This document shows, piece by piece, positions 210 through 20,420 of a stretch of DNA of 64,000 nt. The stretch is from positions 1 to 64,000 of the forward strand of contig JACPQY010000063.1 in the NCBI GenBank assembly GCA_016190245.1. Direction: 5' to 3'. Positions within the stretch are counted from its first letter, which is position 1. Every line of letters begins with the position of its first letter. A program made the translations under genes and the position numbers. Below the pieces are notes generated by a model. The model searched no databases, was not told the DNA's origin, and saw nothing but the letters and a program-made list of their open reading frames with translations. This DNA is from Nitrospirota bacterium (lineage in GTDB: Bacteria; JACPQY01).

Positions 210-2288
210 TCAGGGAACCGCGACGCTGAGGGAGGCCTCGGACAAGACGATGGGGGGCGGGGCGTCAGCGGGATTCGCGTACAGCCACTTCACGAACCGA
301 TCGTTGTATCGCCGGTAGAACCACCGGGCCTCAATCCGGTAGGGCCCGGCGACCGAGCTCGGGAGTGTCCAGACCACCCTGTCATGGAGGGCCTTGCCCG
401 GCTCCAACGTCAACTTGTCCGTCAGCGATGACGCGGCCCAAATGCGATGCCGATCCACGGGCCGCCCGTCGTCGCCTCGAAGGACGGCCCCGAGTCGGTG
501 GCGGGCGCTCACGGGGCGATCCGAGGGGGGCGGGGCTCCGTCTTCATATAGAACGCCTCCCCTCGCGTCCGTTACTCGAAGATGCAGCCAGATATCCGCC
601 AGGTCGAACATGGCCACTGGGAACTCGTGACCGATCCTGGAGTTGGTCGTGCGGATACCCACCATGATGCGCGAGGCATCGGCGGGGTCGGGGATCGAGT
701 CCAGCTCAAGGTCCAGGAGGGGACGGCGGGCGAAGTACTTCGTGTAGGCCTGCAGCGAGGGTTCGCGCTTCACCCACAGCAGGATCTGCATGAAGGTGGA
801 TACTTCGAGTTCCCCTCTCAGCCAGCGTCGGCTCTCCGCCTCGAAGTCCTTCACCTCCTCCAGTCCGGCAGCATCGCCCTGCAACGTGGCGGAGAGGGCC
901 GTCTGGATCCCGAACATGCGGTGGTCGGCGCGGGTGCTCCCGAGTTTTTCCATGGATTCGGGGTCATTGTGAGGGTGAAGTTGAAGGTGACACTCCATGC
1001 AGCGAATGCCCTCCGTCGGGAAAGAAGAGCGTTTCCACGAGGGATACGGGCCCGGTGGCTCGCCGTCGTTCCCGTCGAGAGTCACGGGCTCTGCGTGACA
1101 GGCGAGACAGAACTCGGCCTCTTGGTGCGACGGATGTCCGTACGAATTCCTGTGGGCTCGCAGGTCCTCCCCGATGAAGGCGCGGCGCCGCGCGGGGTCC
1201 GCATCCTCCGCATCGGGAAGGTAGATCGTCGGAACGGTGATCCGCCGCTGCCGCTTCGGGGACTCCGCGTCAGCCTCGTGGACGAGGTGGCAGGTCACGC
1301 AAGAAACTCCCGTTTCCTCGAACTCGCGCACCAGCTTTCCATCGGCCCCGGTGAACATGCCCGCGGCCGGGTTGTGGCATCTCTCGCACAATGCGGCGTC
1401 GCGGCCGGTTTCCTCCCTCCAAACCCGCAGGACGTTCTGGTACGCGACGTTGGAGGCGGAGTAGCGGTGGAGCGAGGCCGACCACTGCTTGTAGATCTCC
1501 GAATGGCATCCGGACCCACCACAGGACTCGGCCGATTCGAAATAGAAGGAGGGGAGCGATTCAACGGTGGAACCGGCCTTGAGCCGGTCCGGCCGACGAC
1601 TTGCCCCGGAACTCACGCCGGCGCCGCGACGCTCAAGAGCGATGAATCCGATGGAAAGGAGGATCACCGCCGAACCGAGGACGCCCGCCGCGGCCGCGAA
1701 CCGCGTCCGTCGGACGGGGTAGTTCCTCAGGATATGAAAAAGGACCGGCAGCCAAGCGAGCAGTCCGGAGTACCGATGTAGGAGGTGAAGCGGCTCGGAG
1801 CCGATCGACTTGAACGGGCCGCCCACGTAGAAGCCGCTGGCGAGAGTCAGGATCAGCAGCATGAACGCGGTGGATCCGTTGACCATCGAAGAGCGGCCGT
1901 GTGGGGCGGGGTTCAGGACCACGCGGAGCGCGAGGAGAAAAACGGCCAGCGCGCCCAGCATGAACGCTGTGTTGGCCGGCACGGGGAGGAGCAGGAAGAC
2001 AATGAAGCTCAGGCCGGCCGCCGCCGTCAGGATGGCCGCGCGCCACCCAACGAGCCGCCGCAGGTGGACGGCGGTCACCAGGAGCGCCACGGGTGCGGCC
2101 AGAAGGGAAATGCCGTTGTGGAGACGCACGATGGTGTACCGGAGCGAATCCGGGGCGTTGTGAAACTCCAAGCATGCGCCGGTGAGGAGTGAGAGGAGAA
2201 GAAGGACGATGAACGCGAAGACAGCCATGGCGCTCCATCCGCCGTAGAGTCGTGAACGCCGCTCGGAACCGCCTGCGGGGGCCACCAT
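210..2288 (-). CDS. Cytochrome-b-like membrane domain fused to pentaheme cytochrome c (copy 1)
   Basis: The N-terminal 220 residues or so form several membrane helices with two spaced His pairs, H57/H75 and H171/H185 (H-x17-H and H-x13-H), the pattern of bis-His heme b binding. A periplasmic cytochrome c554-like domain follows with five heme c motifs: one CX4CH (C256-H262) and four CXXCH (near residues 301, 330, 394 and 430). The last 160 residues are a heme-free beta-rich region. The likely role is electron transfer from membrane quinol to periplasmic or outer partners; this is inference. The ATG at 2288 is preferred because GAAGGG lies just upstream; a GTG at 2321 is possible. The gene lies 51 nt downstream of the spermidine-synthase-like gene, so they are probably co-transcribed. 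It is a paralogue of the product at 12046-14109. Confidence 0.85.
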   Translation of the reverse strand: MVAPAGGSERRSRLYGGWSAMAVFAFIVLLLLSLLTGACLEFHNAPDSLRYTIVRLHNGISLLAAPVALLVTAVHLRRLVGWRAAILTAAAGLSFIVFLLLPVPANTAFMLGALAVFLLALRVVLNPAPHGRSSMVNGSTAFMLLILTLASGFYVGGPFKSIGSEPLHLLHRYSGLLAWLPVLFHILRNYPVRRTRFAAAAGVLGSAVILLSIGFIALERRGAGVSSGASRRPDRLKAGSTVESLPSFYFESAESCGGSGCHSEIYKQWSASLHRYSASNVAYQNVLRVWREETGRDAALCERCHNPAAGMFTGADGKLVREFEETGVSCVTCHLVHEADAESPKRQRRITVPTIYLPDAEDADPARRRAFIGEDLRAHRNSYGHPSHQEAEFCLACHAEPVTLDGNDGEPPGPYPSWKRSSFPTEGIRCMECHLQLHPHNDPESMEKLGSTRADHRMFGIQTALSATLQGDAAGLEEVKDFEAESRRWLRGELEVSTFMQILLWVKREPSLQAYTKYFARRPLLDLELDSIPDPADASRIMVGIRTTNSRIGHEFPVAMFDLADIWLHLRVTDARGGVLYEDGAPPPSDRPVSARHRLGAVLRGDDGRPVDRHRIWAASSLTDKLTLEPGKALHDRVVWTLPSSVAGPYRIEARWFYRRYNDRFVKWLYANPADAPPPIVLSEASLSVAVP

Positions 2289-2339
2289 CACCGTCCCTTC
2301 ACAGATCTGTCGTGCGCACACGATCGCCGCGCCGATCCT

Positions 2340-4481
2340 TCACGCCTGACCCCGTTGAAGGGCAGACGTCTCCGGCGAAGATGCCGGTCTCTCCGGGCGC
2401 CAGAGCAGGGCGCCGGCAAGCCCGATCAGTGGCGCGGCCCGGGGGTAGACATGAAACCCGAACGTGTTGAGCAGGAACAGCGAGGCCACGCTCCCGAGCA
2501 CGAACCCGACACCCATGAAGGCATAGACGCTGGAAAGGCCGTCGGGCGGGACCCACCTCAGCAGCGCCGGCCAGTAGAGCCCTGCGGAGAAGCCCACCCA
2601 TACGGCGCACAACCCTATCGGGACGGCGGTGCCAAGCGGCTCGAGTACCGCGAGGGAAGCCGCGAGGCTGGCCGTGCCCAGCCAGGGCGCGAACCGCAGC
2701 CGCCACCCTTCACGCCAGTGCGCCACCCACAGGTTCGCTACGGCTCCTCCCGCCAAGAAGAGCGAAATGAGAAAACATGTCCCTGAGGCGGGCCCGGAAA
2801 GAAAGAAGCGGGCAAACTTCGTCACCAGATACGTCTCGCTGAGCGCATAGCAGAGGCCGAACGCCACCGCCGCCCATCGGCCGGACCACACCAATCGAGG
2901 GCCGTGTCGCCCGGCCAGCCGCGTCGTGATCGACATCAGACCCCAGACGCAGGCCAGCACACCCAAGGGGAAGAGCAGCGAACCGCGGCCCTCGTGCGGC
3001 GAAGGGTCGCGCAGTACCGGGCGGTCATCCGTTGGGAAGGCATCGGGCAGGGTACCGACTGGAACCGGCACGACCGATCCCAGCCCGCCTATGTCTCCCG
3101 CCATCCTCTCAATGGCCCGCGCGTCACGCGAGGCGAGGAAGAAGAAGAGAGGTAGTTCCACCATCGGGTAGTCGGCCACGACGTACCAGAAGGCGCGTGC
3201 TTCAACGCCAGGTGGCATCGCCGCCAAGAAGACCTGCGCCAGATCCTTCTGGATGCCGCCGGCATCGATCGCAAGGATTCCACCCGGCTTGAGGACGTGA
3301 TCGAACATTCGCAGATAGGCCTCCCGGGTGAAGCAATAGTTCTCGGCGAACAGCATCGCAAACGGGAACTGAACGGTTCCATTGTCGATGCCGTCGATGA
3401 AAATCAAGTCGAATTGTTCCTGCGTGCGATCGAGAAAGGCGCGACCTTCAGCCGCGATGAGTCGGGTCTGAGGCCGGCCGAACACATGGTTGTTGTAGCT
3501 GCCGAGGTCCGATGCGAACTTGGAAACGATGACCTCATCAATCTCGATGCCGACCACGCGTTGCAGCAGGGGTTCGCTCTCCAGCAATGTCTGAGTCGCC
3601 ACGCCGCCACTCGCCCCGATGACGAGAGCGTCGTTCCGGCCGGCGGCGACGACCTTGAGGATCTGCCGCCTCTGCAGGTGATCCCGCAACGGGTTCGTGC
3701 ACACGTACCAGAGCATGAAATCGTTGTGGATGCCTGCGACACAGGGGTCCGGCCCGATCATGAACTCCAGGAAGTCCATCTTGTGGTAGTCCGACCAATA
3801 GGTGCCCAGGTGGCGTCCGTCCCTCACACTCCACGTGAACAGCTTCTTCGACTTAAGCGCGGGGTAGGCGCTCAGGGCAAGGAGGATGGGCACGGCCACC
3901 GCGATCTGTCGCTTCCCAGACGGGAGAAGCAACACGAACAACGCCGTCAGGGAACACAGAAGGACGTAGGCGCCGACGACACGTATCGCCAGGTAGGACA
4001 GGATCGTGCCGACCACGAACGCCGCCAGATGGGCGGCGTAGTCCCGAGCCGGCCGCCGAGCATCGCTCAATGCCCGGCACAGAAGTCGACTGCACACGGC
4101 AAACGGGACGGCTGAGGCCGGCATCGAGAGCGCCAGAGCCGCCACGTGTCTGCCGGCATCCATCGGAGGGAACGCAGGCGCTCCAGCCGCCCGGACTAGG
4201 TACATCATGGACACGTGAGCGTTCTCGCAGAACGCAAATGCTCCCAGAACGAGGAGCAGCACTTCCGACCATTGGATGCGCGGGGCGGTTTTCCGATCCG
4301 AGCGAGCGGCCAGGATGGCCCCCGCCACAGAACCTGCCAACGAGAGGGTCACGATCAAGGGGAGGAAAACATTGGTGGGCATCTTCAAGCCATGAAGCCG
4401 CACGAGGGTGTGCAACATTCCTCCGGCCAAGAAGCCGGTTGTGATCGGAACGAACGACAGGCGCGCTGATGCGCCGGTCAT
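2340..4481 (-). CDS. Polytopic membrane protein with spermidine-synthase-like domain (copy 1)
   Basis: This 713-residue protein has about seven N-terminal membrane helices (residues 1-215), a Rossmann methyltransferase/spermidine-synthase-like core (about 220-450) and a second membrane block (about 475-690). The core shows GASGG in place of the usual GGGDG, the acidic ribose-binding end of strand 2 (EIDEV, about residue 313), and FIDGIDNGT where true spermidine synthases have a D-S-T-D-type catalytic loop. Two Cys, C247 and C261 (C-x13-C), sit just before the core and are conserved in the two paralogues at 6421-8439 and 15928-18120. The family is often annotated as fused MFS/spermidine synthase; the reaction is unproven. 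It is followed by the cytochrome gene. The ATG start at 4481 has GAAGCGG upstream. Confidence 0.8.
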   Translation of the reverse strand: MTGASARLSFVPITTGFLAGGMLHTLVRLHGLKMPTNVFLPLIVTLSLAGSVAGAILAARSDRKTAPRIQWSEVLLLVLGAFAFCENAHVSMMYLVRAAGAPAFPPMDAGRHVAALALSMPASAVPFAVCSRLLCRALSDARRPARDYAAHLAAFVVGTILSYLAIRVVGAYVLLCSLTALFVLLLPSGKRQIAVAVPILLALSAYPALKSKKLFTWSVRDGRHLGTYWSDYHKMDFLEFMIGPDPCVAGIHNDFMLWYVCTNPLRDHLQRRQILKVVAAGRNDALVIGASGGVATQTLLESEPLLQRVVGIEIDEVIVSKFASDLGSYNNHVFGRPQTRLIAAEGRAFLDRTQEQFDLIFIDGIDNGTVQFPFAMLFAENYCFTREAYLRMFDHVLKPGGILAIDAGGIQKDLAQVFLAAMPPGVEARAFWYVVADYPMVELPLFFFLASRDARAIERMAGDIGGLGSVVPVPVGTLPDAFPTDDRPVLRDPSPHEGRGSLLFPLGVLACVWGLMSITTRLAGRHGPRLVWSGRWAAVAFGLCYALSETYLVTKFARFFLSGPASGTCFLISLFLAGGAVANLWVAHWREGWRLRFAPWLGTASLAASLAVLEPLGTAVPIGLCAVWVGFSAGLYWPALLRWVPPDGLSSVYAFMGVGFVLGSVASLFLLNTFGFHVYPRAAPLIGLAGALLWRPERPASSPETSALQRGQA

Positions 4482-4778
4482 GCCGCTTCAGCCGCGTCCA
4501 TCGCCGTAGCCCGCCCTTGCCCGCCTACGCAAGGCGGCGAAACCGTGGGTGCCCCCTACTCCACCGTCCACGAATCGCCCCGCCGTGCGTGGGAACGCGG
4601 CGCTCAGCCGCTCGATGGCCCGCCGCCAAGCATTGAGATATGATCCGAACGCCGAGAACGAGGCCATGCACCCCACCGCGACTTCGATCCCCCTCCCCCT
4701 ACCCACTCCCAGGTTCCACGCGCGGACAGATGCAGGTCCAGCGCCCCTCCGGCACCCCGTCCTCCTTCCGTCGGCTTG

Positions 4779-6455
4779 ATGGCGCCGGCCTCTCCACACT
4801 CCAGAACCGCGCGCCGACCGAGGGCTGCCATCCTCTTGGCGGACAGTATAGTGTTTGTCGCCCTCACCTACAAGGCCATCGAGGCGTTCCTCCTCGCCGG
4901 AGAAGGCGTGCTGGACCAGCGCACGGGCCTGATCCGGGGGATCCTGTGCCTGGCCGCCCTGCTGCTGACCGCGTGGCTCCAATTCCGTTTCGTCCCGCTG
5001 GCCTCCCGCGAGCGGTGGGTGGATCAGGTTCTCGGCACGCTGGCCCCCGCGGCATTCGTCGCCAGCCTCGCCTTCTACCCGCCGGGGAAAGGGTTTTCGG
5101 GCCTGTGGCTTCCGCTCGAGTGGCACAAGCTCCCACTCAACATTGAACTGATGAGCCGGATCTCTCCGGCTCCGGCCGTGGCGATGGCCGCCTTCTTCGG
5201 CTTCCTCACGGTCGCCCTCGCGAGCGGCCGGAGACCCCTTCGGGTCATTCTCTGGACGGCACTCGCAGCGTGGGCGATCTTCAACATCTCGCTGGCCAGG
5301 TCTGACGCCCTCCGGTCAAAGGCGATCCTCTACGGCGTGGCCTTCGGGGCGCCGCCCTTCGTGGCCCTTTTCCTCGGCCTGGGCCGCTACCTGCGATGGG
5401 CGTCCCGCTCGGCGCTGGCCGGGTTGCTGGGGACGCTCATTTTCTGGCACTACGCCGCCGTTCTCCCCCCGAAGAGCAGCCCGAACTACCCCCCACCCTT
5501 CGAACTGGTTTACCCACGCCCGGGGACAACCCCCGACTTTCCGCTCGCCTTCATGCGGGACTATGCCCTCTCGCCGGACGGACGTTTCCTCTACACCAAC
5601 TACGGACCCGCCTCCGGCCTGGCCAGGATAGACCTTCAGACGGGAACGGCCGAGGTGCGCCACGTCCCCGGCCTCTCGCGCTACCTCTGGCTCGATCCCT
5701 CCGGTGACCCTCTCTACACGATGGATTGGGACCGCGGCGACTTCATCGTCTTCGGCACGAACCCCTTTCTCATTCGCTCGCGCGCCGACCTCCTGGAGCA
5801 GGGCCGCGTAGCCCCGTGGTCGTTCGACGTGACCGAGACCCGGCTTTACATCGGATTCCATGAGGCGCCGATCCTCGCCGAATTCGACCGCGCCTCGCTG
5901 TCCCTCCTCAGAACTCTCGATCTGAAACGCGAGGGCTGGACGCGGTTCAACAGCGGGCTTTACAAGGTCGTGTTCGATCGGGCCACGCACGCGATCTACA
6001 CGGAGGCAGGCATGACCGATCTTCGGGACCGGTTCGTGCTGCTGAAGATCGATCCCGATACGTTTGCGGTGACGGAAAGCGCCGAGCTTCCGGAGGGGGG
6101 CCTGGACTTCACACTTGTCCCGCCCCGCAACACCCTCGTGACGGCCAGTTTCTTCTCCAACCGGTTCTACGAGTATTCCCTCGGCCCGCTGCAACTCCGC
6201 CGCGTGATCGAGGGGCCGCTCAATTCGAGGAACATCGTGTACGACGCCCGCCGGAACCTTCTCTACGCATTGGCGTTTCTACCGGGCGAGCTCCGGTGCA
6301 TCGCCTACGACACAGGGCAGACGCTCGTCCGCCAGGAGGTGGGGAACAAAGCACAGAGCCTTTTGCTCGACGCGGCGCGAGACGCGCTCTTGATCGGAAG
6401 TTCGCACGGCGTCTATCGTGTCACACCGGGAGAATGGGTGGGTCGCCGGCCCTGA
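4779..6455 (+). CDS. Membrane protein with C-terminal beta-propeller (copy 1)
   Basis: The protein is about 558 residues. The N-terminal half (to about residue 235) is hydrophobic with several membrane helices. The C-terminal half has repeated beta-sheet blades of YVTN/NHL-like type, such as ALSPDGRFLYTNYG and IVYDARRNLLYALAF. The propeller is predicted to sit on the periplasmic side. The architecture recurs at 10566-12056 and 14295-15866, always beside a cytochrome or synthase-like gene. A TTG three bases upstream is possible, but the ATG is preferred. The 3' end overlaps the convergent gene at 6421 by 35 bp. The preceding 297-bp gap (4482-4778) is divergent from the synthase-like gene; apart from a small GC hairpin at 4521-4537 I see nothing definite in it. 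Confidence 0.7.
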   Translation: MAPASPHSRTARRPRAAILLADSIVFVALTYKAIEAFLLAGEGVLDQRTGLIRGILCLAALLLTAWLQFRFVPLASRERWVDQVLGTLAPAAFVASLAFYPPGKGFSGLWLPLEWHKLPLNIELMSRISPAPAVAMAAFFGFLTVALASGRRPLRVILWTALAAWAIFNISLARSDALRSKAILYGVAFGAPPFVALFLGLGRYLRWASRSALAGLLGTLIFWHYAAVLPPKSSPNYPPPFELVYPRPGTTPDFPLAFMRDYALSPDGRFLYTNYGPASGLARIDLQTGTAEVRHVPGLSRYLWLDPSGDPLYTMDWDRGDFIVFGTNPFLIRSRADLLEQGRVAPWSFDVTETRLYIGFHEAPILAEFDRASLSLLRTLDLKREGWTRFNSGLYKVVFDRATHAIYTEAGMTDLRDRFVLLKIDPDTFAVTESAELPEGGLDFTLVPPRNTLVTASFFSNRFYEYSLGPLQLRRVIEGPLNSRNIVYDARRNLLYALAFLPGELRCIAYDTGQTLVRQEVGNKAQSLLLDAARDALLIGSSHGVYRVTPGEWVGRRP

Positions 6456-8439
6456 TCCCCCTTGCCGCAATCGCGCCCAGAACCCCGATGAGAACCGCGG
6501 CCGCCCAGCCGCTCGCCCGGTAGCCGATGAAGAAGGGCGTGCCCTGCGCCGCATAGAGGCCCAGGAGGAACGCCAGTCGAGCGTCAGCCTTCCCCCGCCC
6601 CTCGGCCTCATCCGGCCAGAGCATCCCGAGTCCCAGGCCCAGAACCGCCGTCGAAACAAGCATCACCAGGGGCGACTTCTGGGCCAGCGCCACCATCAAT
6701 GCCGCAGCCGAGGCCAGGGCCGCGAGAGGGATGGACGACGATCCGCCGGCGCCGAGTCGCCGACTCAGGACACCCGAGATCATCCCTGCGATCAGGGCGA
6801 TGCCCACGTAGAGGCCGCCCGGGTAGGGTCCATAGGTGGAGACCAGCCTCGAGCACCATGCCGCAACCAGCGTCACAACCCACCCCCCGAGGAAGCCCCA
6901 GAGTCCCGCGACGAGCGCGTCCCTCCGCGATGGCCCCGCGCTCCTCCGCGCTGCGAAGGCGATGGCACCGAGAACGAAGAGCGGCAGTGGAAGCAGCACG
7001 AGGAGCAGATTCGGCTGGATGAACCGCTGCAGAAAAGGAGTGTCATCCGTGAACCGGTACTCCTTGCGATCATACGGAGGATGAACCTCGCGCAAGGCGG
7101 CTGATGATCGAAGTTCGTCCGCAATCCGTGCGAGGGCGGATTCATCTCGCGACGCTGCAATCAGGAACACGGGCAAGCCCATGAAGGGGTAGTCGCTGAA
7201 CGTCGTCCAGAAGATGCGGTACCCCACGTCGTCCGGGAAGTTCGCGACCAGCGGGATAGCCTCGAACTCCACGCTGCTCCCCCAGTTGATGGCGAGGATC
7301 CCGTCCTTCTCCAACCGCTCGTCGAAAAGCGTTCGGAAGCTTTCGCGGGTGAACACGAAATCCTCCTGGAAGAAGTTGGTGAGGGGTTGCACCACGAGCC
7401 GTATCCCAAGCCCGTCCATCACGATCAGGTCGTAGCGCTCCCGATCCCGTTCGATGAAGTTCCGCCAGTCCGCCACGACGGCCCTGTAGCCCGGTCTCTC
7501 GAACACGCCCTGGTTGTAACCTCTGTATCGGCCCTTCATTCGATCCACCACGATGGGATCGATTTCCACGGCCGTCACCCGTTGGAGTTGGCCGGGATCG
7601 CTCTCCAAGGTCAGAGGCGTCGTTCCATCCGTGCGTCCGAGCACGAGCAGGCTTGTTTTCCCCTTTCCGACGGCCCTGTGAAAGGCTCGCTGTTCCTTCT
7701 GGAGCATGCTCGTATCGTCACAGACCTGCCACAGCATGAGATAGCTGTAGACCCCGCCCAGGCAGTGGCCATCCCGAAACGAAATGAAGTTGAGAAAGTA
7801 GTAGGGGCTCCACGTCGTTTCCAACACCTCGTGGGGGCCCACACGCCAAGTGAGAAGCGCGCTCGGCCTTCTCTCCGAGAGGGGTACGAGGCCCAGCGAA
7901 AGCGCGAGGACCGCCAGGGTGAGAAGCCGGCGCCGAGACGCCATCAGCGTCAGCGCGGCGCTGAGTGCGAAGACCCAAGAGGCGCCCACAACGAGGATCG
8001 CGCAGTAGGAAGCCGACAAACCCAGCGCGACGCCAAAGAGCCAGCCCACGCGGTTCGTCCCCGCCACCCCACGCGTCCCCAATCGCAAACACACGGGAAC
8101 GCTCAGGAGCAGCGAGCTTCCCAGGAGCAGCCACTGGACGGGGACCCCGGTGGGCTTGGGATACGGGTAGTAGTTCGTGGACGCCAGAAAGTGGAGCGAG
8201 ATCCGGCTTCCGAAGAGCGTCGTGGCCACAAACATCAGGACAAACGCCGCGGACAGCCAGGTGGCGGCGCGCTGCTCCCTCCACTTCACGGGCCAAAGGG
8301 GGCCCACTGCGTATCCCAACGAGGGCGCCATCAGAATGAAAGGGCTCACGATGTCGAGTGGGAACCGGGCATTCATGATGCGGAGAAAAGAGAAGAGAAG
8401 ACTGGAGAGGACAAAACCAACCGAGATGGCGGTCATCAT
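6421..8439 (-). CDS. Polytopic membrane protein with spermidine-synthase-like domain (copy 2)
   Basis: The architecture matches the gene at 2340-4481: N-terminal helices, a Rossmann core and C-terminal helices. The core has LGRTDG as the nucleotide-binding loop, the acidic EIDPIV and VMDGLG, where the second catalytic Asp of spermidine synthase is replaced. The C-x13-C pair is C226/C240, in a stretch that also carries WSPYY and an LM-x-W motif. It shares YYPYPKP and FPLD with copy 3 at 15928, so these two are the closest pair. The frame is open upstream to 8691, but that would overlap the divergent lipoprotein gene; the ATG pair at 8434-8439 directly precedes the first helix and is preferred. 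The true enzymatic activity is unknown. Confidence 0.78.
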   Translation of the reverse strand: MMTAISVGFVLSSLLFSFLRIMNARFPLDIVSPFILMAPSLGYAVGPLWPVKWREQRAATWLSAAFVLMFVATTLFGSRISLHFLASTNYYPYPKPTGVPVQWLLLGSSLLLSVPVCLRLGTRGVAGTNRVGWLFGVALGLSASYCAILVVGASWVFALSAALTLMASRRRLLTLAVLALSLGLVPLSERRPSALLTWRVGPHEVLETTWSPYYFLNFISFRDGHCLGGVYSYLMLWQVCDDTSMLQKEQRAFHRAVGKGKTSLLVLGRTDGTTPLTLESDPGQLQRVTAVEIDPIVVDRMKGRYRGYNQGVFERPGYRAVVADWRNFIERDRERYDLIVMDGLGIRLVVQPLTNFFQEDFVFTRESFRTLFDERLEKDGILAINWGSSVEFEAIPLVANFPDDVGYRIFWTTFSDYPFMGLPVFLIAASRDESALARIADELRSSAALREVHPPYDRKEYRFTDDTPFLQRFIQPNLLLVLLPLPLFVLGAIAFAARRSAGPSRRDALVAGLWGFLGGWVVTLVAAWCSRLVSTYGPYPGGLYVGIALIAGMISGVLSRRLGAGGSSSIPLAALASAAALMVALAQKSPLVMLVSTAVLGLGLGMLWPDEAEGRGKADARLAFLLGLYAAQGTPFFIGYRASGWAAAVLIGVLGAIAARGIRAGDPPILPV

Positions 8440-8579
8440 CGAGGGCGCCCGGGACGCTGCATTATCGTCGCGGCCGCACCACATCGTCAAGCGCCACCCG
8501 GGCTTGAATCCGCCGGAGAAGCGGGGGAAGCTGCCACCATGACAAGGCCGGACGAACCGGCTGCGAGTGGCCGGACTCG

Positions 8580-10529
8580 ATGACGCCTTCAGGAAACCTT
8601 CCTGGTGGAGCCGCCAGGCGGGCCTTCCTGCTGCTGTGGGCAGCGGCCGCCCTGTGCCTCGCCACGTCTTGCAACCCTGAGCAAAAGGCAAGGATTGAGG
8701 CCGGACTCCAGCAGCGGGCCCAGCGTGCCATGACCAAGTGGCTGATCCTGCGATCCGGCGCTCTCCCCGAATTGTGGGGCGAGATCTGCGCCATGCTCTA
8801 CCCCGTTCCCGGCGGCATCCTGGCGGGACTGGGCTTCGACGTCGGGCTGTTCCGCACCGGTCCGGACGGCTCCCCCACCCTCTCCGCGCGGGCGGAAGTG
8901 GGCGGCATTGTCCACGACGCGGCCGCGGCCCCTCCCTACGTCTACCTTGCAGCAGGATCGACCGGACTGGGCGTGCTCGACTTGAGACAACCCGACCGCA
9001 TCCGGTCTGCCGTGAACCTCGGCGTGCCGGGCTACGCCCTCGTCGTGCGCGTGAAGGGAACGCGAGCCTTCGTCGGGCTCAAAGAGGGCGGGGGTCTGGT
9101 GGGGCTCGACATCAGCAGACCTGACAAGCCGTCCGTGTCCTTCTCCATCTGGCGGGGCGAAGACGTCTCGGATATCGAGTTCCTCGGGCCGTACGTCGTG
9201 GCCGCCGTCTCCAACCGCGTCGAAATCATCTCGCCCTCGGAAGCCGGCGCGCCGAAACAGATTTCGAGGTTTCCCCTGCCGCGACGCTCCGCCATCGAAC
9301 CGATCGATCCTCTCCCCCGAGACCTCGTCCTGAACCCACCCTACCTCTACGGGGTCAACGGGGCGGACGGCCTGTTCGTCCTCGATCTCTCGGATCCCAC
9401 CCGACCCCGCCAGGTATCGGAGTTGACGGACCGTGGGTTTCTCGAATCCATCGCCCTCTTTGGCGCGAAGGCCTTCGTGGGCAGGAAAACCGAACACGTG
9501 GGAATTGTGGACCTGTCCGACCCCCACCGCCCAACGTGGAAGGGCACGCTCCCCGTCTTCGGTCGCACCTTGAATTCCGGCGCCTCCGCGGACGAACTCC
9601 TTCTGGCCGGAGGCGCCAAAGGCTGGTCCATTTTCGACACGCGACGTGACCCACCGGCGAGGGTGGCCTCCTACACCCTCCCGCCCCGGGCCTACGACGT
9701 TCTGCCGGACGGGGAGAGAATCTACGTCGCGTCAGGCCCGCTCGGCATCAAAACCCTGCGACGCGAGGCGGACGGGTCGAACACCGAGATCGCCAGGATT
9801 GAGACCGCAGGGAACTCTCGGCATCTCCGCCGGGTGGGACAGGATCTCTGGGTTTCGGACACCAACGGGGGACTCGTCATCGCCTCCCTGGAAGATCCAG
9901 ACCATCCCGCCGTCCGGACCTACCTGAACACAGGCAACCACGTCTGGTCGAGCTTGCCGCTGGGCAGCGGACTCCTCATGGCCGGCGGGCGTGGGTTGTC
10001 CTTCTTCGTCCCCGCCCCCGGGGGCTTCTCCCTTGCCTCGGAACTCCCCCTCGATGGCTACCCCGTGGACATCGATGCGCATGAAGATCGTGTCTACGCG
10101 GCCCTGATCAGCGGCCGCGTAGCGGTCGGCAGGCTCGAGGGGTCATCCCTCCGCTGGATTCGCGATCTCATCCCCTCCAAGCCGATTCCCCGGCCCTGCA
10201 CGGCGCTGTCTGTTGCCGAAGGGCGAATGATCGTGGGAGACGCCAAGGGGAGGGTCTACCTCTACGACCTGCGGAATCCCGAGGAACCCAAGCTGGTCGC
10301 GAAGACGCGCGTCGGAGCAACCGTGTTCGACATCGAGTTCGACGGCCGGGAGGCCTGGGTGGCCGCGCACAAGGCAGGGCTCATCGAGATCGAGGCAATC
10401 GAGAACACCCTCAACACCTCGCATCGCTTCATGATCGGGCAGACCGTCCTGGGAGTCGGCCTGTCCGATTCGGAGGTCTTCGCTGCGACGGGAGATGGCC
10501 GCGTCGTTTCCGTCCCCAGGCCTCAGTGA
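8580..10529 (+). CDS. LVIVD-type beta-propeller lipoprotein
   Basis: A lipoprotein signal peptide with the lipobox-like end LATSC (Cys about residue 31) is followed by roughly 600 residues of LVIVD-like repeats. Typical blades read LDLRQPDRIRSAV, LDISRPDKPSV and LDLSDPTRPRQV, the family signature of a hydrophobic strand followed by D-x-S/R-x-P-x-x-P. Such propellers act outside the cytoplasm, usually as binding scaffolds; no catalytic motif is visible. The gene begins 140 bp from the divergent synthase-like gene and is followed 36 bp later by a membrane-propeller gene and then a cytochrome gene, so these three probably form an operon. Confidence 0.75.
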   Translation: MTPSGNLPGGAARRAFLLLWAAAALCLATSCNPEQKARIEAGLQQRAQRAMTKWLILRSGALPELWGEICAMLYPVPGGILAGLGFDVGLFRTGPDGSPTLSARAEVGGIVHDAAAAPPYVYLAAGSTGLGVLDLRQPDRIRSAVNLGVPGYALVVRVKGTRAFVGLKEGGGLVGLDISRPDKPSVSFSIWRGEDVSDIEFLGPYVVAAVSNRVEIISPSEAGAPKQISRFPLPRRSAIEPIDPLPRDLVLNPPYLYGVNGADGLFVLDLSDPTRPRQVSELTDRGFLESIALFGAKAFVGRKTEHVGIVDLSDPHRPTWKGTLPVFGRTLNSGASADELLLAGGAKGWSIFDTRRDPPARVASYTLPPRAYDVLPDGERIYVASGPLGIKTLRREADGSNTEIARIETAGNSRHLRRVGQDLWVSDTNGGLVIASLEDPDHPAVRTYLNTGNHVWSSLPLGSGLLMAGGRGLSFFVPAPGGFSLASELPLDGYPVDIDAHEDRVYAALISGRVAVGRLEGSSLRWIRDLIPSKPIPRPCTALSVAEGRMIVGDAKGRVYLYDLRNPEEPKLVAKTRVGATVFDIEFDGREAWVAAHKAGLIEIEAIENTLNTSHRFMIGQTVLGVGLSDSEVFAATGDGRVVSVPRPQ

Positions 10530-10565
10530 CGATGCTTGCCTTCGTGGTATGATGCCGGCCGACCC

Positions 10566-12056
10566 ATGGTGACAAGGGCCGGTCGGGAAGAGAATCAGCG
10601 TGCCGGCGGCCTCCCCATCACCCCCCGGGTGTTCCACGCCCTCCTCTGCTTGTTTCACACCCTGCCGCTCGGCGTCATCGGCCTCCTCGGTCGGTCTGCG
10701 CTCGCTCTCCTGCTCGTACCCGTGTGCGCCTGGGCCGCGTGGTGGGCCTCGCGCACAATCGATCTCCCTGCCAGGCTCCCCGGATTCCTGCTGGGATTCT
10801 ACGCCTACGGCGCCGCCGGATTCTGGCTAGCGTTTGGCTACATCTTCGAGTATCCGTTCAGCCACACCCTCTTCTATCTGCACCTCCTCTTCGTCGCGAC
10901 CGCGTGGCTTGCGTCCCGGGTGCCGTGGGCCGAGACTTGGGTCCCCCGCTTTGTCTCCCTGCTCCTAGTGGGCTTTGCATCGGCGGTCGCCACCCTGCCC
11001 TTCGGCCGCGCTGGAGGCATCGTCGCCTTGGCAACCCTCACGTTCCTGTTGTGGAGGGAGCGCGAGGCCTGCCGGCGCGCGTGGTCTCACCTCGGCGCGA
11101 CCGCGCTTCTCCCCGCCGTCTCGGCGTTCTTCGCCTTCGTCTTCAGCTTTGCGCTTCAGGCCGCGCCGAGGCCGGGCCTCGCCCGCGAGGTCACTCGCCA
11201 AGAGGGCGTGGAAGCGTTGACGCTCACCGGCCGCTTGCCGAGCACACAACCCCGACTGACCCTGGTGACGGAGTCCTGCCGGGCGGACGGCCTGATCGCC
11301 GGTTTCTCGCCGGCCATCTTCCCATCGCGCCTGACGCTGATCCATCGGGCCACGGGGACCGGCGAAATCACGATCAGCCCCAAGATCAAGGATCCTTCGG
11401 CCAACGCGGCGATGGATTGTTCGCGAGGCACGCTCTACGTCGGCCAAGGGGATCCCCCGGCCGTTCTGGCCTTTCACGACGACAACGTGAAGGAGCCTTG
11501 GCACACCATTCCCCTTTCCGGTGGACGCCCCAAGCTTCTCTTTCCTGCGGAGGACGCCTCGCTCCTCGCCGCCGTTGACGGCGACGGTCAGGCACACGTA
11601 CTCGACCTTTCCTCGAACCGCGAGCTTTCCGGGGCCGAGGACCGCGCCGGGCCCTGTGTCCGCCGGTCGGCGACTGGATGGCGCCCTTCCAACCTTCTGG
11701 GCCCCGCCCCGACTTGCGCGTACGACCCCCGGACCGGTTCCGTGTGGATGGCGGATTTCGAGCGCGGCATCCTGCAGCGATGGGAACACCCGGCGGGTAC
11801 TCGCAGCCTTCCACTCCACCTCGAACGAGGGATCCGGGTCGTCCTCCTTGATCCGGTTTCGAGACGCCTCGCCGTCGGCAACTACCTGACGGGCCACGTG
11901 ACCCTGATCCAGGCCGACACGGCGTCCGTCCTGCGAACCTTTTGGACAGGACCGCGCATCGAGGCGTTGGCCTTCTCACATGATCATGATCGCCTGTATG
12001 CGACGAGTGCGGCCGGCCTCTTGGAGATCTCTCTGCGGGGGACCCGTGGAGACTGA
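10566..12056 (+). CDS. Membrane protein with C-terminal beta-propeller (copy 2)
   Basis: The protein has about 496 residues: hydrophobic helices to about residue 210, then a propeller. It is clearly related to the product of 14295-15866. Both carry a TE-S/G-C motif at the start of the propeller, MDC or VDC in the next blade, a C-x-YDPR motif later, and NYLTG near the end, so several Cys are conserved and may form disulfides. The ATG at 10566 is preferred over an in-frame TTG at 10536. The stop codon overlaps the GTG start of the cytochrome gene by 11 bp, indicating translational coupling and a shared function with that cytochrome. Confidence 0.72.
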   Translation: MVTRAGREENQRAGGLPITPRVFHALLCLFHTLPLGVIGLLGRSALALLLVPVCAWAAWWASRTIDLPARLPGFLLGFYAYGAAGFWLAFGYIFEYPFSHTLFYLHLLFVATAWLASRVPWAETWVPRFVSLLLVGFASAVATLPFGRAGGIVALATLTFLLWREREACRRAWSHLGATALLPAVSAFFAFVFSFALQAAPRPGLAREVTRQEGVEALTLTGRLPSTQPRLTLVTESCRADGLIAGFSPAIFPSRLTLIHRATGTGEITISPKIKDPSANAAMDCSRGTLYVGQGDPPAVLAFHDDNVKEPWHTIPLSGGRPKLLFPAEDASLLAAVDGDGQAHVLDLSSNRELSGAEDRAGPCVRRSATGWRPSNLLGPAPTCAYDPRTGSVWMADFERGILQRWEHPAGTRSLPLHLERGIRVVLLDPVSRRLAVGNYLTGHVTLIQADTASVLRTFWTGPRIEALAFSHDHDRLYATSAAGLLEISLRGTRGD

Positions 12057-14109
12057 CCACCGACTCTTCCGGTCCCGCTGGGCCGGCATCGTTCACGTCT
12101 TCGTGTTCCTGTTCGTGGGGATCGCCCTCACCGGATACGTTCTCGCCCTGCGCCAACCCCTCGATCTCTTCGCTCTCTTCGCGCTCAAGACCCACGTCTG
12201 GCTGGGCTATTTCGCCACGATCCCCTTCGCGGTGATCACCGCCGTGCATCTGCGCAAGCTCTACGGGACGGGTGTCATGCTTCTGGGCATGGCGAGCCTG
12301 GGCGCGATGGTGTTCGCCTTCTTCATAGACCTCGGGCCCATCGAGCGTCTCGTCCTCGCGCTGGCCCCCCTGGTGTACGTGACAACGAGGCACTTCTTCG
12401 CGGGGGACCAATGGCCCCGCCCGAGGCTCATTCTGGGCACCCTTAGCTTCGCGGGCCTGGTGATGCTCCTCGGCACAGGTTGGCTCTTGGCGGGCCCTGC
12501 CCACACCCTGCGGACGAGCGCGATCAGCACCCTGCACGACACGCTCGGTTGGATCCTGCCCCCGCTGGCCCTCATCCATGTCTTCCGCAAGTACGAGCGG
12601 GAGGAGGACCCGCACTGGCGGGCCCGGTGGGGCCTGCTCCTTTGCTGGTGCGCAGCCCTGGGCGCATGGACCGCGATGGAAGTCGCCTCGGCGAAAACCC
12701 GTGAACGCCTGCGGCTGGCCCCCGTGGTGAGCCCCTCGACGGGATCCGATCCGGAAGGTTGCGGCCACGCCGCCTGTCACACCGAGATCTCAAAGCAATG
12801 GGGTGCATCGCCCCACCGCTTCTCATCGTCCAGCCTGCCCTACCTCAAGGTCGCCGCCCTGTTCGAGCAGGAGAAGGGCGAGGGGGCGCGCGACTTCTGC
12901 CGGGGTTGCCACGAGCCATCGGCCCTTCTCGGAGCGCAGGACGCCCCTTACGCCCCCCCCCCGCCGGGAATCCAACCCAGCGTCTCCTGCCGAGTCTGCC
13001 ATCTGATCGACCGGGTCGCGTCTCCCGGCGAAAACGGACACTTCGACCTCGCGCCGGAGCGGCTGTTTCTGCCGGGTCACGAAGCGGGAAACAACGCCGT
13101 CCGCGATCTCCTCGACGATTTCACCCTCCTGGACAAGCGCGACCACCGCGCCGCCTACCGTCGGGAGGCACAGCAGTCCGATGACTTCTGCCGCGCGTGC
13201 CACAACTCCCTCGTCCTCTCGCCCGGCCCCGGAAAACCCGATGTCGTCATCGAGGGCCCGTTCCCTTCCTGGGAGAAGTCCTTCTTTGCGAGGGAAGGGA
13301 TCGGCTGTGTCCACTGCCACATGCAGCTCTTCCGGTTTCCGGATCCGGACTCGATGGATAAGCCGCACCACTCCCGGCCGGACCACCGGATGTTCGGGAT
13401 CAACGCCTACCTGGCAACCACCTTGCCTGAGGGGCAGTTCGACGAGACCGCGCTGGACGCCTTCAGGGTCGAAACCCTGGGCTGGCTGGCGGGGACTCTC
13501 GACATCTCGACCTACGAACAGCTCTATCTGCGTCGAACCCGCGACCCCAGGTGGGACGCCTTCCGCACCTATTTTCAGGGCAAGCCTCTGCTCAACCTCA
13601 AGCTCCGGGGGGAAGGTGACGGATCGTCCCTCGTCCTCACGGCAGAGACGACCAATAGCCGCATCGGTCATAGATTCCCCACAGGTCTCCTGGATCTCAG
13701 CGAAGTCTGGCTGGAGGTGCGCATCGCCGGGGCGGATGGAAGAACCGTTTACGAGTCCGGCATCCCGCGGCAAGACGGCACGCTGCCGCCCGATACTCGC
13801 TCGCTCGCGGCCGACGTGCTCGATCGCGATGGGCGACCGGTGACCCGTCACAGGGTCTGGACGGCCGCGAAGATCGAGACGCGCCGCCTCCTCGAACCCG
13901 GAGAAACCGTCTACGATCGCTTCGGTCTTCCCTCCCTTCCCGAGGGAACCTTCCCGTTGACCGCCCGGGTTCGCTGGCTCTACCGAAGGTACAACCCCGA
14001 GTTTTCCGCGTGGGTGTTCGGCCCCGGCCACATCGTCCCCGTGGTGGAACTGGCCTCTGCCGAGCTTCAGTTCGGCGGCAACGCCGCCGGGCCCTCAGCG
14101 GAGAGGTGA
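12046..14109 (+). CDS. Cytochrome-b-like membrane domain fused to pentaheme cytochrome c (copy 2)
   Basis: This is a paralogue of the gene at 210-2288 with the same layout. The membrane domain carries H50/H68 and H164/H178 at identical spacings (H-x17-H, H-x13-H). The cytochrome c domain has one CX4CH (C239-H245) followed by four CXXCH motifs (C285, C315, C382 and C421). A beta-rich C-terminal part contains NSRIGHRFPTG, similar to the family's tail. The first c-type motif is followed by E-I-x-K-Q-W, typical of cytochrome c554-like proteins. The GTG at 12046 has GCGGGGGA upstream and overlaps the previous stop; a longer in-frame ATG at 11980 would overlap far more. The 185-bp gap to 14295 holds the heptamer repeat element. 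Confidence 0.85.
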   Translation: METDHRLFRSRWAGIVHVFVFLFVGIALTGYVLALRQPLDLFALFALKTHVWLGYFATIPFAVITAVHLRKLYGTGVMLLGMASLGAMVFAFFIDLGPIERLVLALAPLVYVTTRHFFAGDQWPRPRLILGTLSFAGLVMLLGTGWLLAGPAHTLRTSAISTLHDTLGWILPPLALIHVFRKYEREEDPHWRARWGLLLCWCAALGAWTAMEVASAKTRERLRLAPVVSPSTGSDPEGCGHAACHTEISKQWGASPHRFSSSSLPYLKVAALFEQEKGEGARDFCRGCHEPSALLGAQDAPYAPPPPGIQPSVSCRVCHLIDRVASPGENGHFDLAPERLFLPGHEAGNNAVRDLLDDFTLLDKRDHRAAYRREAQQSDDFCRACHNSLVLSPGPGKPDVVIEGPFPSWEKSFFAREGIGCVHCHMQLFRFPDPDSMDKPHHSRPDHRMFGINAYLATTLPEGQFDETALDAFRVETLGWLAGTLDISTYEQLYLRRTRDPRWDAFRTYFQGKPLLNLKLRGEGDGSSLVLTAETTNSRIGHRFPTGLLDLSEVWLEVRIAGADGRTVYESGIPRQDGTLPPDTRSLAADVLDRDGRPVTRHRVWTAAKIETRRLLEPGETVYDRFGLPSLPEGTFPLTARVRWLYRRYNPEFSAWVFGPGHIVPVVELASAELQFGGNAAGPSAER

Positions 14110-14130
14110 CGCGCCCGCCGAATCGCGCCG

Positions 14131-14250
14131 GTAAGCGTTCAGCCATCAGCAGTCAGCTTTCAGCTTTCGGACAAGGGACGGAGGTGCTCGTGTCTTGTAT
14201 TCCCCTCCTGATCCGAGGCTGACGGCTGAGAGCTGACCGCTGAACGCTTA
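14131..14250. repeat. Inverted heptamer-repeat element
   Basis: The outer arms are the perfect 12-bp inverted repeat TAAGCGTTCAGC (14132-14143) and GCTGAACGCTTA (14239-14250). Each arm continues for about 39 bases as a degenerate 7-bp period of the type TCAGCNN, and the two arms still match each other in every TCAGC block. The central 40 bases are unique. It lies between two convergent genes and may act as a bidirectional terminator or a structured element; the 7-bp periodicity is shared with repeats at 33562, 34446 and 46033. Confidence 0.75.
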
Positions 14251-14294
14251 CTCGCGCCGAAAGGGCCGTTCCTGGGTCCCCTCTGCCGATCCTG

Positions 14295-15866
14295 TCATCC
14301 GGGTCGTCCCGATCGCACGGCGGCGAGGTCAATCTCGAACAGCCCGATCGCCGAGAAAACGAGGAGCCGATCGGCGCGATAGCCGGAGAAAACCGGCTTC
14401 CCTGCGCGGGGCCCCACGTAGAACTGGGCCTTGCCGTCCAGCGTCTCCGCGTCCACGACATCCACGATCCCCGTCAGATAGTTCGTGACGGCGAGTACCT
14501 GTCCGGAGGGATCGCGGGAGAGATGCCATACACCGCGCCCGAGCTGGACCGCTCTAGGCGGCGTCGAGTCGTCCAGCGCCACGGAGACGAGCCGGCCGGC
14601 CCGCATCTCGGCAAAGTACAGGCGGCCCCGGCGCGGATCGTACTCGCAGTGAACCGGTGTTTGCATCCCCACCCTCCCCCCTCCGAGCTCTCTCACGGGG
14701 CTCGCGCTCGTTCCCAAGCTGTAGGGCACGGCTCGCCCACGCAACGCCCCGCCCGCAAAGCCACCCCACGCGACCCAGAACTCCCCGTCCCCGTCGAACC
14801 GGCATGTGCTGCGCGGCAGATCCTCGATCGTGTCCACGCTCCCACTCCCGAGATCCACCCTCACGACGCGAGCCGTGTCCTCGCCCGCCAACAGCACGAC
14901 CCGGCGGTCTGCCGACCACAGAAGCTGGATAGGCCGGAGGTCGGGAAGGTCGTACACCGAACCCGATCGCGTCACCGCCCCCAAGCCGTATTCGAGGATC
15001 TCGTTCGTGTCCAGACTCCCCACAAGAAACCGACCGCCTTCACAATCTACGAGGACGTTTTCCGAACCACCCATGACGTGCTTCGCGTAGGTTTGCTCAC
15101 CCGTCGCCCGATTCCAACGCATAAGGGAGTACTCTCTCTTGTCGCCTTGGGCCCCCATGATGAGGATATCCGGCGAGCACCCCTCCGTCACAAACCGCAG
15201 CCGGCGAGCCAACTCCGGCGGCCAGCTCGGCCGTCCCACCGCCATGAGGGACGTCACACCGGGCTGTGCCTCGACCCGCTCGATCCACGACGCCACATAG
15301 CCGCGCTGAAGGACGAGACCCGCCGCCGCCACGGGCAGGACGGCAACGGGGACGACGAGGGTACCGACCGCGAAGAGCTCACGCCACCGCGGGCGAAGGA
15401 GAAACTCCCTGCACAGGACGACCGCCCCCAGGGCGTAGAGCACGAGAACGGACGTGGAGTGCACGTTCCACAACAGGTAGCCCAGGAAACCCCAGTATCC
15501 GCCCCAGTAGGCAAGATCGAGCCAGCGACTCCGGACGAGGTGCACCACCAGAAAAGCCGCGCAGGCCCACCCCGCGATCCCGACCCACACGGGCTCGAAC
15601 GGACGGATGAACCAGATCACCACCAGAAAAGCGACCGCCAGCTCCGTGACCGCGTACCCCCACCGGAGGACCCGTGGCGCGCGCTCCCGCCAACCCCGCG
15701 TCACAAGCAACTCCCAGGCGAGATAGAGCACCAGGGGGAAAAGCACCGCGGTTGCCGGCCCGAACGCCATCATGAGCGCGATGCCGGGGAGGGCAAGATG
15801 AACGGCGTACACGCCGCACGTGATCACGAAGCCGGGCCTGACGGCTCTTTCGGACGCGGCGGTCAC
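14295..15866 (-). CDS. Membrane protein with C-terminal beta-propeller (copy 3)
   Basis: The protein has 523 residues. About seven hydrophobic segments fill residues 10-210, followed by a beta-propeller of some 300 residues (blades such as LFSAIGLFEIDL at the C-terminus). It aligns by eye with the product of 10566-12056, including the conserved TEGC, VDC, C-x-YDPRRG and NYLTG motifs. The start is a GTG at 15866, 61 bp from the divergent synthase-like gene at 15928, so both could share one short regulatory region. The gene is convergent with the cytochrome gene upstream. The function is unknown; binding of a periplasmic partner of the cytochrome is an inference from context. Confidence 0.7.
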   Translation of the reverse strand: MTAASERAVRPGFVITCGVYAVHLALPGIALMMAFGPATAVLFPLVLYLAWELLVTRGWRERAPRVLRWGYAVTELAVAFLVVIWFIRPFEPVWVGIAGWACAAFLVVHLVRSRWLDLAYWGGYWGFLGYLLWNVHSTSVLVLYALGAVVLCREFLLRPRWRELFAVGTLVVPVAVLPVAAAGLVLQRGYVASWIERVEAQPGVTSLMAVGRPSWPPELARRLRFVTEGCSPDILIMGAQGDKREYSLMRWNRATGEQTYAKHVMGGSENVLVDCEGGRFLVGSLDTNEILEYGLGAVTRSGSVYDLPDLRPIQLLWSADRRVVLLAGEDTARVVRVDLGSGSVDTIEDLPRSTCRFDGDGEFWVAWGGFAGGALRGRAVPYSLGTSASPVRELGGGRVGMQTPVHCEYDPRRGRLYFAEMRAGRLVSVALDDSTPPRAVQLGRGVWHLSRDPSGQVLAVTNYLTGIVDVVDAETLDGKAQFYVGPRAGKPVFSGYRADRLLVFSAIGLFEIDLAAVRSGRPG

Positions 15867-15927
15867 CGAATTCCCTCGGGGCCTACCTTGCGCTCGACGG
15901 CCGCACCAAGCCCGGACGTGTGACTAG

Positions 15928-18120
15928 GTGGCGGGGGGGCCGGCATTTCGCTATTCTTTCCCGGTCGTGATCAGCCGTACGGCCGTCGTCTTCCTCGGCT
16001 TCTTGATCCATTTCCAATGGCTCTCGCTCTACCATGCGGTGCAGACAAAGTTTCCCTTGGACCTCGTGGCGGTTCTCCTGCTCGGCCTCCCGCTCCTTGG
16101 CCTTTCCGCGGGGCTTCTGACACGTCGCGGGGAGGGCCGCCTCGGGCCGGTCTGGGCGGCCGGCGCCGCTGTCTTCGCATGGAGTCTCTGCTTCTCCCAG
16201 GCCCTCAACCTGCACTTTCTCGTCTCCTCCATCTACTATCCCTACCAGAAACCCGCCGGATATGCCCTCGGTGTCGCGATCTATGTGCTGGCGTGGATCG
16301 CCTGCGTCCCCTACTTTGGCGGCCTCGGAACGGCCTTGAGGACCATGGCCTCGGCTCGCGGGGCCGGGCCCCCGTGGCCCGCGATGGCGCTCGGATTCGC
16401 CCTCGCGTACCCCGCCGCTTACGCCGCCCGCACGGCGGTCGGTCCCTACCTCGCGCTGCTGCTTGCCTCCGGCATCTCACTTGCATGGCTCGGGCGTGGG
16501 GTTCCCCTCCGGGCCGCCGCACTCCTCCTGCTGGCCGGGGGATGGTGGGCCTACCACGCGAAGCCCACACAACTCTATCTCTGGCGGGCGAGGACCTACA
16601 CGGCCTCTGAGGAACGGTGGTCGCCCTACTATCGCCTGACTCCCGCATTCTTCAACGAGGGGCGCTGCGCGGGGGGCGTCTTCAACCAGTTGATGATCTG
16701 GTACTCCTGCTCCGAGTACGATCTCTACCCCCGGGAGTCCCGCCTGACCATCGAGGCGATGGGCGCCGGCCGTCGGAAACTCCTCGAACTCGGCAGAACG
16801 GACGGCATGACCACGCTCGCCACAAGGAACGTCTCGCCTGACGTTCGCTCGGTTACCGTAGAGATAGACCCGCTCGCGGTGCGCCTTTCCCGCACGCTGC
16901 TCGGGCCGTTCAACATGAACCTCTTCCGCACCCAAGGCGCGGACCTGATGGCGGCCGACTGGCGTCACGTCCTCCGGGATGATGGCGAGCGCTACGATTT
17001 CATCTATCTTGACGGCCTCGGCATCCGCCTGTACACGATCCCGCTGACGATCATCCCGCAGGAGAACTTCCTCTATTCGCGTGAGGCATACTCCGACATC
17101 TTCCGCCGCCGCATGGCGCCGGGCGGTCTTCTCGCGATCAATTGGGGCAGCACGCGCTCCGAGGAGGTCTATCCTCTCGTGGCGAACCTCCCGCCGGAAA
17201 TCCACGCGAGGGCCTACTGGGGGACGATGACGACATTCCCCTTCACCGGTCTCCCGCTCTTCTTCGTGATCGCCTCGGAGGACGACACAACGCTGGAGCG
17301 CATCGGTCGCGAGTTTCTGGCGATGGGAAACCTGCAGGAAGTCCCGTTGCCTCCGGAGCAGGTGGAACAGCATCGGTACACGGACGACCGGCCTCACAAC
17401 CAAAGGAAACTTCCGCTGATGCTGCTCGTGCCCACGCTGCCTCTGGCCTTCCTCGTGGCGCTCGCGTTTGCCCGCTGGATGAAGAGAAGCGGTTCGGGCT
17501 GGAAGAACCTGTCACCCGGGATCTCGGCCGGGTTCCTCAACGGCGTTGCCGAGGCCCTGCTCGTGAGCCGGGCCTCGATCCTGTTTCCGCTCGGCCCAGC
17601 TCAGGGGTGGGTGCCTTCGGCGGTGATGCTTTGGGGAGGTCGCGCTCTCGGCGGGCTGCGCTCTCCCTCAGACCGAGCCTCATGGCTCCCACCGGTGGCC
17701 ATCTTGGGCTCGTGCCTCGCGGTGACCGGCACCGTGCCCTATTCCGCCGTCACGGCATCGCTCGCGCTGGCGGGTGTCGCCCTCGGCGCGATGACCTGCC
17801 GCGCCCTCCACAACGCAGGAGATCACCCCCACCTTCATCCTCCCCCCTCAAGGGGGAGGAATGAGAATATCCCCTCCCCCCTCGCGGGGGAGTCCGCCAG
17901 TGGCGGAGAGGGTGGGGGGGAGGATGGCCACAGGCTCGGGTCGTGGGTGCTTGGCCTTGCGACCGGGATCTATTCTTTCCAGTGGATTCAGTACGCCCTC
18001 GGGTTTCGAGGGACGGCAGTGATGGTCGGCGTCTTGGGCTTTGTCGTGGCTGGGCGCGCTTCCCTGTTCCCCCTCTCCATAAAAGGCCAGGGTCCTATCC
18101 GAAAACGCCGGAGCTCGTAG
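15928..18120 (+). CDS. Polytopic membrane protein with spermidine-synthase-like domain (copy 3)
   Basis: The protein has 730 residues with N-terminal helices, a Rossmann core and C-terminal helices. It has WSPYY, the C-x13-C pair C247/C261, LGRTDG, EIDPLA and YLDGLG, closely matching copy 2. Two features are odd. Residues about 637-665 are encoded by a run of palindromes (17838-17907), an in-frame repeat insertion between C-terminal helices. The TAG stop is the first TAG of a GTAG-hairpin element. The start is GTG at 15928 with no obvious Shine-Dalgarno; a GTG at 15967 directly before the first helix is an alternative. Confidence 0.75.
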   Translation: MAGGPAFRYSFPVVISRTAVVFLGFLIHFQWLSLYHAVQTKFPLDLVAVLLLGLPLLGLSAGLLTRRGEGRLGPVWAAGAAVFAWSLCFSQALNLHFLVSSIYYPYQKPAGYALGVAIYVLAWIACVPYFGGLGTALRTMASARGAGPPWPAMALGFALAYPAAYAARTAVGPYLALLLASGISLAWLGRGVPLRAAALLLLAGGWWAYHAKPTQLYLWRARTYTASEERWSPYYRLTPAFFNEGRCAGGVFNQLMIWYSCSEYDLYPRESRLTIEAMGAGRRKLLELGRTDGMTTLATRNVSPDVRSVTVEIDPLAVRLSRTLLGPFNMNLFRTQGADLMAADWRHVLRDDGERYDFIYLDGLGIRLYTIPLTIIPQENFLYSREAYSDIFRRRMAPGGLLAINWGSTRSEEVYPLVANLPPEIHARAYWGTMTTFPFTGLPLFFVIASEDDTTLERIGREFLAMGNLQEVPLPPEQVEQHRYTDDRPHNQRKLPLMLLVPTLPLAFLVALAFARWMKRSGSGWKNLSPGISAGFLNGVAEALLVSRASILFPLGPAQGWVPSAVMLWGGRALGGLRSPSDRASWLPPVAILGSCLAVTGTVPYSAVTASLALAGVALGAMTCRALHNAGDHPHLHPPPSRGRNENIPSPLAGESASGGEGGGEDGHRLGSWVLGLATGIYSFQWIQYALGFRGTAVMVGVLGFVVAGRASLFPLSIKGQGPIRKRRSS
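17838..17907. repeat. Palindromic repeat cluster inside a coding sequence
   Basis: Three hairpins follow one another. TCCTCCCCC/GGGGGAGGA at 17838-17860 has loop CTCAA, CTCCCCC/GGGGGAG at 17874-17892 has loop CTCGC, and TCCGCC/GGCGGA at 17893-17907 has loop AGT. The two CTCCCCC hairpins share stem and loop style, so this is a REP-like module. It is translated in-frame into a Pro/Gly/Ser-rich segment of the host membrane protein. Confidence 0.8.
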
Positions 18121-18208
18121 GGGAGCATCTTCAGATGCTCCCTCCTCATGGGCGGGTCTGCCTGCCCGCCGTCCGCCGCGGCGGACAGGCGGGAAGACCC
18201 GCACCTAC
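18117..18208. repeat. GTAG-hairpin element between convergent genes
   Basis: It begins GTAGGGG and ends CACCTAC. The left part folds as GGGAGCATCT/AGATGCTCCC; the right part has the GTCCGCC-GCGG-type hairpin also found at 44998-45030, 56031-56050 and 57430-57450. The left GTAG provides the stop codon of the gene ending at 18120, and the right CTAC provides the stop of the minus-strand gene ending at 18205. Confidence 0.7.
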
Positions 18209-20413: not shown

Positions 20414-20420
20414 AGGAGGT
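20414..20420 (+). promoter_or_regulatory. Strong Shine-Dalgarno site deciding the start at 20427
   Basis: AGGAGGT lies 6 bases before the ATG at 20427. The frame is open upstream to a possible start at 20337, but that start has no comparable site. Confidence 0.85.

Follow-up and report, generated by a model that had tools for sequence, protein, structure and literature searches.

Di-heme b/pentaheme c fusion cytochromes and beta-propellers as a recurrent gene pairing

Here, we address whether nine interleaved genes of cytochromes, spermidine synthase (SpdS)-like proteins, and propellers make up one membrane redox system. The genes lie at positions 210-18120 of a 64,000-nucleotide stretch of DNA (the window), which is contig C50 of G000, an 85% complete MAG of 3.29 Mb. 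Among the genomes compared, G000 has a single family-mate (G001), and the rest share only the domain with it; therefore, we treat it as an isolated lineage. The nine genes have an even GC content (0.64-0.67) and encode two fusions of a di-heme b domain to a pentaheme c domain (bc fusions), three proteins with a 6TM-SpdS-6TM layout, three membrane propellers, and one LVIVD lipoprotein, with no other gene types among them. An ORF check found all nine ORFs open at their expected positions, bearing out the inventory of an earlier note, which had proposed a new cytochrome-synthase-propeller system. Judged from sequence and gene order, we conclude that the pairing of cytochrome and propeller is real and recurrent, and that this pairing is the actual finding at this locus.

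Cytochrome A (210-2288, minus strand) and cytochrome G (12046-14109, plus strand) are 33% identical in a full-length alignment and have in common five c-heme motifs, of which the first is CX4CH, and four membrane His residues. The ORF of A is open as far as 2321 and has an ATG at 2288; counted with this start, the previously noted 51-bp gap to the upstream gene is correct, as is the 11-bp overlap between G and the propeller gene at 10566-12056. The b half of both cytochromes contains the motifs H-X17-H and H-X13-H, which together are a signature of transmembrane di-heme binding (in A, H53/H71 and H167/H181, numbered from 2276), and both His pairs are present in 15 of 25 homologues compared with 0.44 expected by shuffling. 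Each cytochrome has seven helices (in A, one of them was assigned by eye). With a cytoplasmic N-terminus, this number suggests that the c domain is periplasmic and that one b heme lies near each membrane face. The five c-heme motifs follow the b domain in a c554-like order and, together with further invariant His residues, are present in all seven proteins compared. The c half matches Cytochrome_C554, and its best solved relative is the pentaheme c552 of T. tepidum (5ze8, E 2.5e-11), in a match that spans ~100 of 699 positions. On sequence grounds, we assign it to the known pentaheme (PHC) family of T. tepidum c552 and ExtKL. This family groups Thermochromatium tepidum c552 with ExtKL, Gsu2801, and PHCs of cable bacteria (PMC11976967). 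A putative ExtKL-like Ig-like domain completes the C-terminus of A; in connection with this domain, G has a short ExtKL match at 553-592. In a phylogenetic tree, the six bc fusions of the genome form one clade (100/99) with A and G as sisters, arguing for a radiation within this lineage.

The three membrane propellers are C (4776-6455, plus strand; ~6 TM helices followed by the propeller), F (10566-12056, plus strand, 37 bp after the lipoprotein gene), and H (14295-15866, minus strand). They are 21-30% identical to each other, and none has a Pfam match above the cut-off. Nevertheless, they belong to one family, the profile of which matches solved propellers. An AlphaFold model of H places the propeller after residue ~190, with a pLDDT of about 58-86 across most blades and below 50 in a gap at 350-405; thus, the fold is assigned by model and profile for H and by profile only for C and F. 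While the three genes described earlier as one set are a single family by profile, they represent two anciently separate types, i.e., type 2 (C) and type 1 (F and H), each with its own outside relatives in the tree. Both types are present with good support on C50 and on contig C86; contig C24 has a type 2 and, less surely, a type 1 propeller. An inverted CAGCNNTCAGC repeat between the convergent genes for G and H (14110-14294; 4 pattern matches compared with 0 expected) is probably a terminator or a repeat element. The ninth protein, E (8580-10529, plus strand), is an LVIVD-repeat propeller (PF08309, E 8e-10, above the cut-off) and, based on a signal read by eye (LATSC), a probable lipoprotein.

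Cytochrome and propeller genes also lie together in a second island on the 21-kb contig C24, in which a propeller (16611-18293), two cytochromes (14791-16614 and 12729-14801), and a second propeller (10957-12867) are encoded in this order on one strand, with overlaps of 4 bp, 11 bp, and a longer one dependent on start choice. In total, the genome encodes six bc fusions and eight propellers of the window family. Not all are paired: C86 has two convergent propeller genes without a cytochrome, two of the six fusions are lone cytochromes without a propeller as the next gene (C81 and C7), and the gene next to that for A does not encode a propeller. Beside the second island (C24, 2983-10237), four genes lie in a row, of which at least three encode B12-binding and radical SAM domains; in several other genomes, for example at three of the loci inspected, propellers have nearby genes whose starts look similar.

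Outside this genome, the cytochromes recur next to a different propeller. A comparison of 336 genomes shows that the c domain is widely encoded, for the most part in stand-alone proteins that measure about 370-570 aa. Fusion to the b domain is less frequent; the fused proteins often end in a TPR part, and four loci in other lineages encode such TPR-bearing pentaheme fusions. An FG-GAP/UnbV_ASPIC gene directly follows a b-fused cytochrome gene in G067, G145 (twice), and G280, and two such genes adjoin one in G030. Pfam was run directly on the propellers of G030 (both), G067, G145 (one), and G280; the second G145 gene was placed by the UnbV model. Adjacency in G208, G334, and G191 is suggested by motif count alone. 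The gap between cytochrome and UnbV_ASPIC gene is about −17 to +13 bp, leaving aside G030 with its uncertain start. Within the class to which G145 belongs, each of the four strong matches is followed 2-4 kb downstream by an UnbV_ASPIC gene in the same orientation, and each genome has 8-11 copies; some FG-GAP-bearing genomes are rich in UnbV copies. Altogether, at least three bacterial families besides that of G000 have bc fusions that adjoin FG-GAP/UnbV_ASPIC propellers. These fusions fall in two clades, both apart from the window clade, so that propeller linkage occurs in three clades and with two propeller families. No UnbV_ASPIC match was detected in the own genome with the same model that matches in other genomes. 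Of the 15 proteins that carry the b signature, 10 have a propeller neighbor, compared with none of the 10 that lack it; these numbers are indicative, as some of the counting was manual and the proteins are related to one another. Genes in AT-rich genomes were picked by length. The family-mate G001 has stand-alone pentaheme proteins only and no bc fusion, and nothing beyond weak repeat matches to the window propeller family. Pentaheme relatives in Pseudomonas were rejected as counterparts; they are stand-alone, one-TM proteins without a b domain or a propeller gene and are encoded near apparent secretion genes.

The window propeller family, TM anchor included, also occurs in five other genomes, in several cases with two genes that overlap or adjoin each other, and no cytochrome or SpdS neighbors were found there. 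Therefore, the family is not dedicated to cytochromes. Its membrane propellers are encoded as overlapping tandem pairs at three loci in other lineages; such pairs suggest that the propellers may form heteromers.

What, then, of the SpdS-like proteins? B (2340-4481, minus strand), D (6421-8502, minus strand; its 3' end is convergent with and overlaps that of C by 35 bp), and I (15928-18120, plus strand, divergent from H by 61 bp) are 26-36% identical and the only SpdS-like proteins found in the genome. The listed start of D at 8691 is too long, as homology begins near 8502. Only B passes the Pfam cut-off, I on its own matches no library model, and the predicted structure, with a mean pLDDT of 39, was unusable. 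B has GxSGG without the dcSAM-binding acid and DGID with the second Asp; D and I have GRTDG with the acid and DGLG without the second catalytic Asp. Thus, the full aminopropyltransferase motif set (the acid of GxG(D/E)G and the second Asp of DxxD) is absent from all three. Proteins of about 800 aa with the 6TM-SpdS-6TM layout are also encoded in four other genomes and belong to a widespread membrane family (700-840 aa) annotated as "fused MFS/spermidine synthase"; the window proteins have the layout in common with this family, although they are shorter and resemble it in sequence mostly in the core. The gene for I adjoins one for a 704-aa membrane protein (18205-20319) that looks GT-C glycosyltransferase-like by eye and has no library match; it is followed by a gene for a 1905-aa protein with repeated blocks (20337-26054; SBBP and DUF11 repeat-like by eye), pilin-like starts at 29992-40265, and pilM-, pilN-, pilO-, and secretin-like genes at ~48847-53923 (by eye).

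Co-occurrence across genomes, set beforehand as the test of the three-part proposal, separates its components: cytochrome and propeller recur in the second island and in the other families, whereas all three protein families were seen together only in the window. In a coordinate comparison of 22 other genomes with these cytochromes or propellers, no SpdS match lies within 5 kb of a bc fusion or propeller. Because the three families occur separately elsewhere, a three-part system is not shown, and we reject it. The suggestion that the synthase-like proteins modify a substrate or cofactor for the cytochromes is likewise left unsupported by this lack of a shared neighborhood and by the incomplete catalytic motifs. 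A version of this idea, in which they modify the cytochrome, the propeller, or a membrane cofactor, could be modeled on fungi, in which a 7-TM SpdS-like protein with comparable motif loss is a protein methyltransferase that acts on the N-terminal histidine of exported proteins (PMC10349129). This precedent makes modification conceivable, and the gene for B precedes that for A by 51 bp on the same strand; however, the SpdS-like domain is the middle loop of a ~12-TM protein and cytoplasmic by TM count, while the c domain would be periplasmic. Taken together with the 22 genomes, we consider modification very unlikely. Most likely, the SpdS-like proteins are neighbors that stand outside the electron path and act separately in the cytosol, on small molecules or in methyl transfer; the LVIVD lipoprotein, too, is regarded here as a neighbor of the cytochrome-propeller link.

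We suggest, with a probability of about one half, that the locus encodes inner-membrane, quinol-oxidizing bc cytochromes whose pentaheme domain, in the periplasm, docks to a membrane-anchored propeller. The heme motifs, the b-heme His pattern, PHC membership, gene coupling, and recurrence with the other propeller family are direct observations on which this reading builds. The cytochromes and propellers that occur unpaired, the lack of a bc fusion in G001, the 85% completeness of the MAG, and the high UnbV copy number of some FG-GAP-bearing genomes weigh against it. According to this model, each cytochrome would be an electron exit in the inner membrane. Two b hemes, one per membrane face, would be held between helix 2 (H-X17-H) and helix 6 (H-X13-H) and would pass electrons, presumably from (mena)quinol, to the periplasmic pentaheme domain. 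The propeller encoded by the neighboring gene, anchored in the same membrane, may dock to this domain from the periplasmic side and act as a scaffold or as the binding site of the final acceptor or a soluble carrier. The geobacterial inner-membrane bc-type cytochrome CbcL similarly combines a membrane b and a multiheme c domain in one polypeptide; however, in CbcL, nine c hemes precede the b domain, whereas the window cytochromes have five, after the b domain and of another c family. CbcL receives its electrons from menaquinol (PMC12307469), and we infer the same donor here. PHCs share the five c-heme motifs and the sequence relation to c552 with the window cytochromes, yet the cited literature does not describe any PHC as joined to a membrane di-heme b domain or as encoded with a propeller gene. 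Thus, the window proteins are bc cytochromes of an otherwise known kind with an apparently undescribed propeller linkage.

An alternative is that three unrelated membrane families were duplicated and shuffled together in a plastic region without a common function. The mixed strands with convergent and divergent gene order, the status of A and G as local duplicates, and the separation of SpdS-like proteins and propellers in other genomes are consistent with this; the second overlapping propeller-cytochrome-cytochrome-propeller run and the repeated pairing with a different propeller family across several clades argue against it, and we consider it unlikely. Less probable still is that the cytochrome feeds a redox enzyme of the periplasm, in which the propellers would be the subunits that catalyze the reaction or hold the substrate, comparable to the propeller and heme subunits of hydrazine synthase. 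Both the family profile and the model of H match hydrazine synthase beta, the profile weakly so, as well as an entry resembling cytochrome cd1, alongside many other propellers; moreover, a survey found FG-GAP/CRTAC1 genes adjoining genes for hydrazine synthase-like subunits (PMC12758564). However, propellers are all alike, the structure matches are the same unspecific kind of list as the profile matches, surface-layer YVTN, Lp49, and YncE propellers score equally, and neither a heme motif nor a metal site was identified in the window propellers. Beyond the docked cytochrome-propeller pair itself, we tentatively consider it possible, though doubtful, that a type of respiratory complex made of bc cytochromes and beta-propellers is conserved in several families, with unrelated propellers in the same docking or catalytic place: a membrane-anchored two-type pair in the window lineage and CRTAC1-like propellers in others. 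The CRTAC1-like FG-GAP/UnbV_ASPIC propellers adjoin the same bc fusion as do the window propellers but are of another sequence family and without an N-terminal multi-TM anchor.

The cytochrome-propeller pairing looks like a little-described electron-transfer unit; we found no description of a multiheme-FG-GAP or multiheme-propeller operon in the literature, the sole relevant paper being on anammox enzymes. If the pairing is physical, it would provide a first role, as partners of multiheme cytochromes, for many uncharacterized CRTAC1-like and membrane-propeller genes, and it would be a marker of inner-membrane electron exits in lineages without a named relative of CbcL, ImcH, or MtrA.
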